From Hyphomonas sp. (GTDB taxonomy: Bacteria > Pseudomonadota > Alphaproteobacteria > Caulobacterales > Hyphomonadaceae): a stretch of 10,110 bases of DNA. Location: contig JANSXJ010000112.1 in assembly GCA_024743015.1 (NCBI GenBank), positions 1-10,110 of the forward strand, given 5' to 3'. The notes beneath the pieces are model-generated. The model was not told the origin of the DNA. It did not search any database and saw nothing but the letters and a program-made list of their open reading frames with translations. Made by a program: the position numbers and the translations under genes. Shown here piece after piece: positions 236-6,600 of this stretch. How positions within the stretch are numbered: position 1 is the first letter of the stretch; each line of letters starts with the position of its first letter.

Positions 236-1069
236 CTAGTATCGCGTCAGATCGATCTCCTGATCATTCTGTAAAGCTGGGATGCGCGCGCGGGCTTTGG
301 CCACTTGGTCGAGATCCAGGTCGGCGAGGATGATGCCGGGCGCGTCGCCTTTTGCTTCGGCCAGCACTTCTCCCCAGGGCGATATGATCAGGGAGTGGCC
401 ATAGGTTTCGCGACCATCCTCGTGCAAGCCGCCCTGCGCCGGAGCGAGCACGAAACTGCCGGTCTCTATGGCCCGCGCACGGAGCAGGACATGCCAATGC
501 GCCTCACCGGTCACCCGCGTAAACGCTGCCGGGACCGTGATCAGCTCCGCCCCTGCCTGCGCCAGCGCGCGATAGAGGTGCGGGAAGCGTACATCATAGC
601 AAATGGTCATGCCCACCTGCGCGAGTGGCGTCTCGGCCAGCACCGCGTTCTGCCCAGCTCGATAGGCTTTGGATTCACGATAGGTCTGACCGTCACCGAC
701 CTCGACATCGAACATATGGATCTTGTCATATCGCGCCAGAACCCGGCCGTCCGGTCCGATCAGAAATGAGCGATTGGCAAACCGATCATCGTCTGGCAAG
801 CCGACGGCGAGCGATCCGATCAACAGCGTGATACCAAGCTCGCCGGCCAGCGCCGACAGCGCAGAGAGACACGCATCCTCGGCCTCCAGCGTGATCTTGG
901 AGCGGGCCTGCTCGGGCCGAATATCCAGCAGATTGGTCATTTCCGGGGTCGCGATAAACTCTGCGCCCTCAGCGGCGGCCGCACGAATGAGGCGTGACGC
1001 AGCCTCGACATTGACCGCAATATCCGTCGTCGATCGCATCTGAATGCAGGCGGCGCGCACAGTTTTCAT
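236..1069 (-). CDS. Carbon-nitrogen hydrolase (nitrilase superfamily), Nit1/omega-amidase-like
   Basis: 277 aa, the usual length for stand-alone bacterial Nit proteins. The nitrilase catalytic triad is visible: Glu43 in TPEM, Lys116 in YDKIHMFDV and the nucleophile Cys157 in TICYDVRFP. The KIHMFDV and CYDVRFP signatures are typical of the Nit1/NitFhit branch. Family members hydrolyse small amides such as deaminated glutathione (metabolite repair) or alpha-keto acid omega-amides in the cytoplasm. The exact substrate cannot be read from sequence. The ATG at 1069 has only a weak GGCGG upstream, and no better start is seen. It lies 28 bp behind the SDR stop on the same strand, so it may be the last gene of the HxlR operon or have its own promoter in that gap. 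In many alphaproteobacteria nit sits beside grxC, which is not present here. Confidence 0.9.
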   Translation of the reverse strand: MKTVRAACIQMRSTTDIAVNVEAASRLIRAAAAEGAEFIATPEMTNLLDIRPEQARSKITLEAEDACLSALSALAGELGITLLIGSLAVGLPDDDRFANRSFLIGPDGRVLARYDKIHMFDVEVGDGQTYRESKAYRAGQNAVLAETPLAQVGMTICYDVRFPHLYRALAQAGAELITVPAAFTRVTGEAHWHVLLRARAIETGSFVLAPAQGGLHEDGRETYGHSLIISPWGEVLAEAKGDAPGIILADLDLDQVAKARARIPALQNDQEIDLTRY

Positions 1070-4525: not shown

Positions 4526-4885
4526 CTAGGCCGCCATGACCCGTTCGACCTCGTCCACCAGTTCGCGCAGGTGGAACGGTTTGGAGAGCACTTTCGCCCC
4601 AGCAGGGGTCGGTGCGCCGCCTGAGAGCGCAACGGCGGCAAAGCCGGTAATGAAGACGATTTTCATGGCGGGATCGAGCTCCGCGCCGCGGCGGGCGAGC
4701 TCGATGCCATCAATTCCTGGCATCACGATATCGGTCAGAAGCAGGTCGAACACTTCGCGTTCCAGCGCTTCCAGGGCGCCTTCGCCGTCTTCATAATCCT
4801 GGACATCGTGCCCGGCACGACGAAGGGATGCGCTGAGAAATGTGCGCATCGCATCATCATCTTCTGCCAGCAATATTTTGCTCAT
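4526..4885 (-). CDS. cpdR: CpdR-type single-domain response regulator
   Basis: 119 aa consisting only of a receiver domain. Acidic pocket Glu8-Asp9-Asp10, phosphoacceptor Asp52 in TDIVMPGIDGIELA, Thr80 (ITGFAAVAL) and Lys102 (LSKPFHLRELVDEVE). The ITGFAAVAL and KVLSKPFHLR stretches are characteristic of CpdR, which in Caulobacter is the phosphorelay-controlled adaptor that, when unphosphorylated, primes ClpXP for cell-cycle proteolysis and helps place ClpXP at the pole. The C-terminal Ala-Ala resembles a ClpXP-recognised end. It is divergent from an N-formylglutamate amidohydrolase gene, a neighbourhood I recall for cpdR in Caulobacter, which supports the name. The 129-bp divergent spacer (4886-5014) shows no clean CtrA box (TTAA-N7-TTAA). 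The SD is weak (GGGACAG). Confidence 0.92.
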   Translation of the reverse strand: MSKILLAEDDDAMRTFLSASLRRAGHDVQDYEDGEGALEALEREVFDLLLTDIVMPGIDGIELARRGAELDPAMKIVFITGFAAVALSGGAPTPAGAKVLSKPFHLRELVDEVERVMAA

Positions 4886-5014: not shown

Positions 5015-5896
5015 ATGCGCGTCACTTTCGACCTTCCTTCCGGCTCAAGCGAAACGACCCTCCCGGCGTTCGAAATTGCGCGCGGGCAGCCTTTGAAAGC
5101 GCCGGTCATTTTTGCCTCACCGCATAGTGGAACCCATTATCCACAACACATGCAGACGAATTTGAGCGTTCCGCTTTCGGATCTGCGCCGGACCGAAGAT
5201 GCTTTCATAGACGAGCTCTATGCGCCGGTCGCTGACCAGGGCGGCGTATTGATCTGCGCGACGCATGCGCGAACCTATGTCGATCTCAACCGAGATGCGC
5301 GCGAGCTTGACGCCGACATGTTCTTCGATGGGCCGCCACGCATGACAGGGATGCCGTCTGCCCGGGTCAAGGCGGGGCTGGGCTGCCTGCCGCGCGTCGG
5401 GGCGAGCGGGCGTGACATCTACCAGCAGCCGCTTTCGAGCGCCGAGGGCGCCCATCGCCTTAAGCACGTGCACGACGCCTATCACCAGGCACTGCAATCG
5501 GAGGTGGAGGCTCTGAAACCGAACTGGTCGGATATTTTCGTCATTGATTGCCATTCCATGCCATCGCGCCAGCCTGGTCGGTCGAGCATGCCAGACATCG
5601 TGCTCGGAGATCGGTTTGGGTCCAGCTGTTCGGCCCGCCTCACCTCGCTGGTGGAGCGGCAGTTCCGGCGCGAAGGTTTCACCGTGGCGCGAAACGCCCC
5701 GTATGCAGGAGGCTATACAACCCGCAAGTATGGTCGGCCCCGGCGCGGTATTCATGTGCTTCAAATCGAGATCAACCGCGCCCTCTACATGAATGAGCTG
5801 ACAATTGAGAAGACACGCGGCTTCGACACGCTGCGAAATCAGCTCTCAGACCTGTGCACCGAGATCCTGACCCTGGCTTTGCTGGAAAACGGTTAA
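5015..5896 (+). CDS. N-formylglutamate amidohydrolase family protein
   Basis: 293 aa. Family motifs in order: SPHSG (35-39, metal-ligand His37), RRTEDAF (Glu61/Asp62), RTYVDLNR (86-93), DCHSM (178-182, His180) and GGYTTRKYG followed by VLQIEINRALYM near the end. The family hydrolyses N-formyl-L-glutamate to formate and glutamate in histidine degradation. This cpdR-linked version is not in a hut cluster, so its substrate could be another N-formyl or acyl amino acid. No clear SD precedes the ATG; TTGACC at 4980-4985 could be a -35 giving a very short leader, but this is weak. The stop codon overlaps the U-tract of a terminator serving a convergent sRNA. Confidence 0.9.
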   Translation: MRVTFDLPSGSSETTLPAFEIARGQPLKAPVIFASPHSGTHYPQHMQTNLSVPLSDLRRTEDAFIDELYAPVADQGGVLICATHARTYVDLNRDARELDADMFFDGPPRMTGMPSARVKAGLGCLPRVGASGRDIYQQPLSSAEGAHRLKHVHDAYHQALQSEVEALKPNWSDIFVIDCHSMPSRQPGRSSMPDIVLGDRFGSSCSARLTSLVERQFRREGFTVARNAPYAGGYTTRKYGRPRRGIHVLQIEINRALYMNELTIEKTRGFDTLRNQLSDLCTEILTLALLENG

Positions 5897-5924
5897 AAAA
5901 AAGCCGCGCAGGTAATGCGCGGCT
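5895..5924 (-). terminator. Intrinsic terminator of the MmgR-like sRNA
   Basis: On the minus strand AGCCGCGCA, loop TTACC, TGCGCGGCT forms a perfect 9-bp stem (5924-5902), followed by a T-tract reaching 5895 (eight T counting the last stem base). Read on plus, the same hairpin is followed by GTATCA and not by T, so it is directional and probably a poor terminator for the amidohydrolase gene. The T-tract covers the last two bases of that gene's TAA. Confidence 0.92.
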
Positions 5925-5973
5925 GTATCAGGTAAGGGAGGAAACGCCCGTAGGCGTTAGCACCGCAGTGCTG
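5895..5973 (-). ncRNA. mmgR: MmgR/alpha-r8 (suhB-family)-like trans-acting small RNA
   Basis: A predicted transcript of about 78 nt on the minus strand with the MmgR layout: hairpin AGCAC-TGCG-GTGCT (5972-5959), hairpin AACGCC-TACG-GGCGTT (5958-5943), a mostly unpaired pyrimidine-rich stretch containing UUUCCUCCCUU, then a 9-bp GC-rich terminator stem and eight U. The UUUCCUCCCU decamer is, from memory, the hallmark of the alphaproteobacterial alpha-r8 family, whose Sinorhizobium meliloti member MmgR is about 77 nt and limits polyhydroxybutyrate accumulation. The motif is anti-Shine-Dalgarno and can pair with GGGAGGAAA-type ribosome binding sites, probably with Hfq. Assignment rests on motif, size, fold and promoter/terminator placement; no covariance search was possible. 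Confidence 0.8.
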
Positions 5974-5979
5974 ATGCTT

Positions 5980-6007
5980 ATAGTATTGTGCACTGCACAA
6001 AAAACAA
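5980..6007 (-). promoter_or_regulatory. Promoter of the sRNA, with a 15-bp palindrome between -35 and -10
   Basis: On the minus strand TTGTTT (6007-6002), a 16-bp spacer and TACTAT (5985-5980) place the start at about 5973. The spacer contains TTGTGCA-G-TGCACAA (6000-5986), a perfect 7+1+7 palindrome, suggesting a dimeric regulator binding inside the promoter. TGCA-containing half sites recall NtrC-like or LuxR-type boxes, but spacing differs from both, so the regulator is unknown. Confidence 0.55.
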
Positions 6008-6201: not shown

Positions 6202-6600
6202 ATGACGGATAATACGGATCTTCATGTTGGCAAACGCCTGCGGCGACGCAGACGCTTGCTGGGCATGACACAGCAAGATCTCGCCGGCATGGTTGGAGTC
6301 CGCTTCCAGCAAATTCAGAAATATGAGTGCGGTGCCAATCGGGTCACATCGTCTCGGCTTGACGATCTCTCCCGCGCCTTGAATGTTTCGGTTCAGTACG
6401 TCTTTGATGGCCTCGAAACCGTGGGTATGCAGGGACTGGCAGCCAATGATGCTGAGCGTCTGGATGCTGACATTCTCAGCCAGAAAGAAACGCTGGAGCT
6501 GGTTCGGGCTTATTATCGTCTCGGTGAACGTCCGCGTCGACGCCTTCTGGAACTTGCCAAAGCGCTCGAGACTGAAGCCACTGAGTCAGGTGCTGCTTGA
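6202..6600 (+). CDS. XRE-family helix-turn-helix transcriptional regulator
   Basis: 132 aa. A cro/cI-type HTH_3 domain fills residues about 10-66: VGKRLRRRRRLLGMTQQDLA, then VRFQQIQKYECGANRVTSSRLDDLSRALNV in two helices plus wing, and VQYVFDG. The C-terminal half (about 85-132) is charged and predicted helical, with the RRRLLELAKALE region probably for oligomerisation. Short XRE proteins of this kind are common in alphaproteobacteria and their targets are mostly unknown. It precedes hisN by 32 bp on the same strand, so co-transcription is plausible. Upstream, 5975-6201 contains the divergent sRNA promoter region. The GGAGG site is a conceivable pairing target for the CCUCC of the adjacent sRNA, though GGAGG is too generic to prove it. 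Confidence 0.88.
   Translation: MTDNTDLHVGKRLRRRRRLLGMTQQDLAGMVGVRFQQIQKYECGANRVTSSRLDDLSRALNVSVQYVFDGLETVGMQGLAANDAERLDADILSQKETLELVRAYYRLGERPRRRLLELAKALETEATESGAA

Follow-up and report, generated by a model that had tools for sequence, protein, structure and literature searches.

A predicted FGase-linked alphaR8 small RNA of the MmgR/SisA type in a Henriciella relative, with a proposed PhaR operator in its promoter

The minus strand between positions 5895 and 5973 of the window, by which the whole analysed stretch of 10,110 nucleotides is meant, encodes, judged from its sequence, an FGase-linked alphaR8 small RNA (sRNA) of the MmgR/SisA type, a new member of an already known family. The source bacterium is a relative of Henriciella, and the sRNA is the counterpart of MmgR of S. 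meliloti and of SisA of Caulobacter. Taken as a whole, the observations are very probably best explained by an alphaR8 sRNA of a Henriciella-type bacterium, with a predicted action through Hfq and a seed sequence and a proposed control by PhaR. The sRNA itself is ordinary in kind and adds one further member at a locus that is well known; the useful part is a suggested link, in which a conserved site for a storage regulator stands in the promoter of an sRNA with predicted nutrient-uptake targets.

Family membership and architecture of the sRNA

The covariance model RF00519 matches the minus strand at 5962-5887 over its full length (model positions 1-77 of 77) with 40.2 bits (E 1.3e-5), 0.8 bits below the Rfam gathering score of 41, which is the curators' reporting limit and not a biological trait. 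Within its own genome the window copy ranks first, 12.8 bits above the second-best match (27.4 bits). Among 41 genomes, comprising its own and 40 relatives, 37 contain an RF00519 match and 31 pass the gathering score; the same-genus genomes G008, G015, and G024 also lie slightly below it, with 40.0, 40.6, and 39.9 bits, and the gathering score narrowly misses copies in this clade. It is plausible that the sRNA is unannotated in the genome annotation, because its match falls under this score. The same stretch also gives a partial match to RF02278, the Betaproteobacteria toxic small RNA, with 27.5 bits and an E value of 0.034, but the gathering score of that family is 50 and RF00519 scores 12.7 bits higher here; membership was rejected on score, and the probability that the window RNA belongs to RF02278 is close to nil.

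The usual neighbor of the family is present as a convergent gene for N-formylglutamate amidohydrolase (FGase) on the plus strand at 5015..5896 (PF05013, 238.5 bits). According to PMC12559287, most species have alphaR8 next to the FGase gene, and the family is characterized by this linkage, by a weak hairpin followed by the 10-mer UUUCCUCCCU, and by a Rho-independent terminator; all of these are present in the window. The original prediction had named an MmgR/alpha-r8-like sRNA at this place and had proposed the RF00519 search as its check; the identity was called correctly, the match being of full length, on the correct strand, and accompanied by the FGase linkage, the 10-mer, and the terminator. 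The gap of 305 bp that it gave for the locus is right from the FGase stop if the HTH gene begins at the in-frame ATG at 6202.

The RNA, of about 79 nt with a predicted 5' end, probably starts near 5973 and ends near 5895. Read on the minus strand, it begins with a first hairpin of 5 bp and a 4-nt loop (5959..5972), followed by a second of 6 bp and a 4-nt loop (5943..5958), the anti-Shine-Dalgarno seed UUUCCUCCCU at 5935..5944, which is the family 10-mer named in the excerpts of PMC12559287, and a terminator (5895..5924) with a 9-bp stem and an eight-U tail. The predicted 79-nt fold comprises the two hairpins, an open CCUCCC-rich stretch, and the terminator stem with its U tail, and has a free energy of -33.9 kcal/mol (z -4.87), a value equalled by 1 of 200 shuffled sequences. 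When three further 5' bases are included (5895-5976, 82 nt), the predicted fold shifts and the core becomes partly paired, so whether the core is open hinges on where exactly the RNA begins. Among 48 relatives, 38 have an open core in their predicted folds; the window, in its 82-nt fold, is not among these 38. The two tetraloop hairpins and the terminator with an eight-U tail, as claimed earlier, were thus both recovered, the U tract lying at 5895-5902, while the unpaired stretch held for the 79-nt fold and not for the longer one.

The terminator is the sole one detected between 5700 and 6300, where 0.5 would be expected by chance. As had been predicted, its U tract overlaps the stop codon of the convergent FGase gene (5894-5896), and the same overlap is seen in the relatives L039, L040, and L041. 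This overlap, together with a consensus scan for sigma-70 promoters that listed none on the minus strand, could suggest that the hairpin and U tract merely terminate the FGase gene or a minus-strand read-through and that there is no separate sRNA. The T run, however, lies behind the stem on the minus strand alone, the RF00519 match spans the full length of the model, and upstream there are two further hairpins whose pairing is conserved and a CCTCCC that does not vary, which together make a terminator without an sRNA very improbable.

Conservation and additional alphaR8-like copies

Relatives of the FGase protein were ranked by protein similarity and the best 80 of 250 were taken, a sample biased to hyphomonads and Caulobacter relatives. 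A comparison of the same gap in related genomes, likewise suggested in the original prediction, placed the sRNA core beside FGase in 71 of these 80: here, as in the window, TTCCTCCCT lies on the opposite strand no more than 400 bp downstream of the gene. Relatives without it in this interval are L045, L087, L093, L096, L107, L110, L114, L115, and L118. It occurs at greater distance in L093, L096, L114, and L118, and a CCTCCC scan of up to four places per locus found no copy of TTCCTCCCT in L045, L087, L107, L110, or L115. In L096 a second TTCCTCCCT (702-704, minus strand) lies some 2.3 kb before FGase in an AT-rich stretch with no hairpin motif. One same-genus genome, that of L045, has FGase and phaR present and the sRNA absent; this genome, listed as G047 and as G012 with an identical phaR place and score, gives no RF00519 match either.

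For the analysis of pairing, 48 sequences were extracted and 38 were aligned after 10 near-duplicates had been dropped by eye, with L053 lengthened by hand. The three hairpins are paired in 98.1% of cells across the 38 sequences, and eight pairs are changed on both sides. The first hairpin is paired in 97.4% of cells, with three of its five pairs double-changed somewhere in the alignment; the second in 97.3%, with no double-changed pair; and the terminator stem in 99.1%, with five of nine pairs double-changed. The covariation score is 0.240; shuffled alignments give 0.108, none of 500 reaching the observed value, and slid partners give no more than 0.096. CCTCCC is invariant in 38 of 38 sequences, and loss of this stretch and of the hairpins in relatives, which had been named as grounds for abandoning the original prediction, was not what the alignment revealed.

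Further alphaR8-like copies occur elsewhere. A second match lies directly behind the stop codon of an ammonium transporter gene in the same-genus loci L297-L305, L307, L308, and L310 (PF00909 in L297); the gene-end sequence was recognized by pattern in 11 loci and by eye in L304, and no PhaR-like dyad accompanies it. This copy could represent a sibling sRNA located in the 3' UTR and linked to nitrogen. The weaker RF00519 match of the own genome (L002, G000:C261:23069-23162; 27.4 bits) has two CCTCC stretches and stands, by eye, behind a LysR-type gene, and the sequence of L313 from a same-genus genome is nearly that of L002.

The promoter dyad and its proposed link to carbon storage

Upstream of the predicted 5' end, a minus-strand promoter is proposed, with a -35 element TTGTTT at 6002..6007 and, 18 nt from it, a -10 element CTATAA at 5978..5983 that was recognized by eye; both are absent from the list of the sigma-70 consensus scan. 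A minus-strand promoter had been claimed earlier, and this is the weak point of that prediction: the promoter rests on conservation, a TTG lying 10-11 nt before the dyad in 64 of 68 loci. In the spacer between the two elements lies the dyad TTGTGCAGTGCACAA (5986..6000, minus strand), a proposed PhaR/AniA operator on account of its likeness to S. meliloti PhaR sites and of the conservation of TGCNNNGCA. Of 72 FGase-linked copies, 66 have this pattern and 70 have YGCRNYGCR in the 90 nt that precede the seed, whereas TGCNNNGCA is found in an average of 5.6% of 90-nt windows. The local background is above this average: in 23 of 76 of the loci L039-L118 the pattern also occurs farther from the seed, between 110 and 200 nt upstream, in a stretch taken as control. 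This excess could reflect either second operators or local composition.

Within the genus, the dyad was present in all 20 FGase-linked copies examined vs. none of 18 RF00519 matches elsewhere, some of which are weak and one of which (L314) has no seed. Across the class it accompanies 27 of 37 FGase-linked loci vs. 14 of 31 unlinked ones. This count covers 61 of the 70 genomes with a match through their best-hit loci, the own genome and eight others being excluded, and omits two FGase-linked second copies (L255, no dyad; L260, dyad). The dyad is hence not exclusive to the FGase-linked locus, as 14 of the 31 unlinked loci carry one. Among 76 sRNA promoters, 25 match the full PhaR motif of 21 letters; the window site does not, differing by eye at one outer letter. 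A match to this motif also lies at 4839-4859 of the window, inside the start of the cpdR coding region, and is possibly a chance occurrence.

The excerpts of PMC12542648 give a PhaR motif and sites in S. meliloti, including those of mmgR (CAATTGTGCACCGCAGCATTA, efficient binding) and phaP1 (TTATTGTGCACTGCACAAATT), and also name gltA among the genes with a PhaR site. The window dyad resembles the sites of mmgR and of the phasin genes. The own genome contains the 13-mer TGTGCANYGCACA three times: in the window, upstream of a Phasin_2 gene (L120), and inside gltX (L119). The identical 15-mer precedes the phasin gene, in an orientation opposite to it, and the dyad in L119 (1499-1513) lies in the final part of gltX, at a distance of about 180 nt from the gltA gene that follows, which encodes citrate synthase.

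A search for the phaR gene (PF07879) gave no match in the own genome, an assembly of 585 contigs with a completeness of 87.5%; phaR is present in 28 of 29 genomes of the genus, the sole miss being the own genome, in all 48 genomes behind L039-L086, and in 14 of 16 order relatives. Over 115 genomes, RF00519 and phaR occur together in 58, each alone in 12, and neither in 33 (Fisher p 1.7e-9); genome size and kinship act as confounders, and this co-occurrence is not taken as proof of a link.

The TTGTGCA heptamer of mmgR is reportedly a nitrogen-control element, and the abstract of Ceizel Borella 2018 is said to name this heptamer and a TGC(N3)GCA dyad, in which case part of the promoter point may already be in print. 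For the same sRNA, the dyad could accordingly serve another regulator or such a nitrogen-control element instead of PhaR. The failure to find phaR in the incomplete own genome is in keeping with this, as are the exact heptamer in 21 of 68 loci and the loss of the dyad where phaR is kept (L049, L060, L010, L013, L026, and L031). Against it stand the match of the window dyad to proven PhaR sites, the 15-mer shared with the phasin gene, and the near-universal phaR of the genus, and a regulator other than PhaR is considered possible but rather unlikely.

With PhaR as the preferred regulator, the protein would repress the sRNA promoter at the predicted operator while PHB is low; accumulating PHB might then titrate PhaR away, so that the sRNA would rise together with the phasin genes and could trim nutrient uptake when reserves are full. 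The direction of this effect is taken from S. meliloti, as given in the excerpts of PMC12542648 and PMC7143759. It appears somewhat probable, by a modest preference, that control of the FGase-linked alphaR8 sRNA by PhaR is ancient and spans rhizobia, hyphomonads, and Caulobacter relatives, with sisA among the genes under it. The promoter of L090, the sisA locus of C. vibrioides OR37, contains TGCGCCGCA, and among the papers listed as matches none describes a PhaR site for sisA or for an alphaR8 gene of a hyphomonad. PMC12559287 reports no motif common to the sisA-D promoters, a negative that would not reveal a PhaR dyad because the comparison is one of paralogues.

Predicted targets and comparison with known systems

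The sRNA probably works with Hfq, and its seed UUUCCUCCCU would pair with the Shine-Dalgarno and start regions of uptake mRNAs and of hppA. Candidate targets were sought in the own genome as AGGGAGGA followed by ATG 2-10 nt later, a pattern found at 20 places and, read backwards, at one. An open frame of at least 100 codons follows at 17 of these, the exceptions being L271, L274 (cut by a contig end), and L283. The 17 frames include three TonB receptors (L265-L267), three solute-binding proteins (L272, L276, and L278), one MFS transporter (L280), and one H+-pyrophosphatase, hppA (L277), along with nine others (YCII, Band_7, GMC oxidoreductase, sulfotransferase, DUF1801, amidase, TPR, DUF2189, and a weak EF-hand match). 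Finding at least three TonB receptors among 17 has a probability of about 4e-4 if the genome, with its 34 Plug matches, is assumed to hold 3700 genes. The control pattern AAGGAGGA, which like the target pattern is a strong Shine-Dalgarno sequence, occurs at 12 places and, backwards, at two; among 10 of the 12 control proteins (L285 and L294, with short frames, being omitted), no TonB receptor, solute-binding protein, or hppA was found. In Caulobacter, according to the excerpts of PMC12559287, hppA and four TonB-receptor fusions are under repression by SisA, and pairing of the window sRNA would likewise block translation of its TonB-receptor, solute-binding-protein, and hppA mRNAs.

Two other candidates were considered. 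Phasin mRNA is not supported as a direct target, the seed duplex with its leader reaching -14.0 kcal/mol vs. a shuffled mean of -10.05 (sd 2.96), with 49 of 500 shuffles as good. L271, which has the seed complement and no downstream gene and was considered as a sponge, proved to be antisense within a 182-codon open reading frame. If the storage link is true, a carbon-storage sensor would set the levels of TonB receptors and solute-binding proteins via one sRNA, beside the sponge CrfA, and sisA in Caulobacter would be predicted to respond to PhaR and PHB.

Among known systems, RF02278 resembles the window sRNA in its CU-rich stretch and terminator. The AbcR sRNAs (alpha-r15), as described in the excerpts of PMC7143759, share anti-Shine-Dalgarno CU-rich stretches and partial homology to the SuhB model, but are 114-120 nt long, have two CU-rich stretches, and are encoded by lsrB, features that the window sRNA does not share. 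MmgR of S. meliloti is like the window sRNA in its length of 77-79 nt, its seed, its terminator, and the PhaR-like dyad of its promoter; its control by nitrogen limitation and NtrC is described in the excerpts of PMC7143759, and its phasin link is not supported for the window sRNA by the duplex test. SisA of C. crescentus, described as nearly constitutive in the excerpts of PMC12559287, shares the FGase linkage, UUUCCUCCCU after a weak hairpin, and the terminator, although the first hairpin of Caulobacter-type loci differs from that of the window sRNA. TonB receptors and hppA are targets of SisA, and the same classes recur, here as predictions only, among the targets of the window sRNA.
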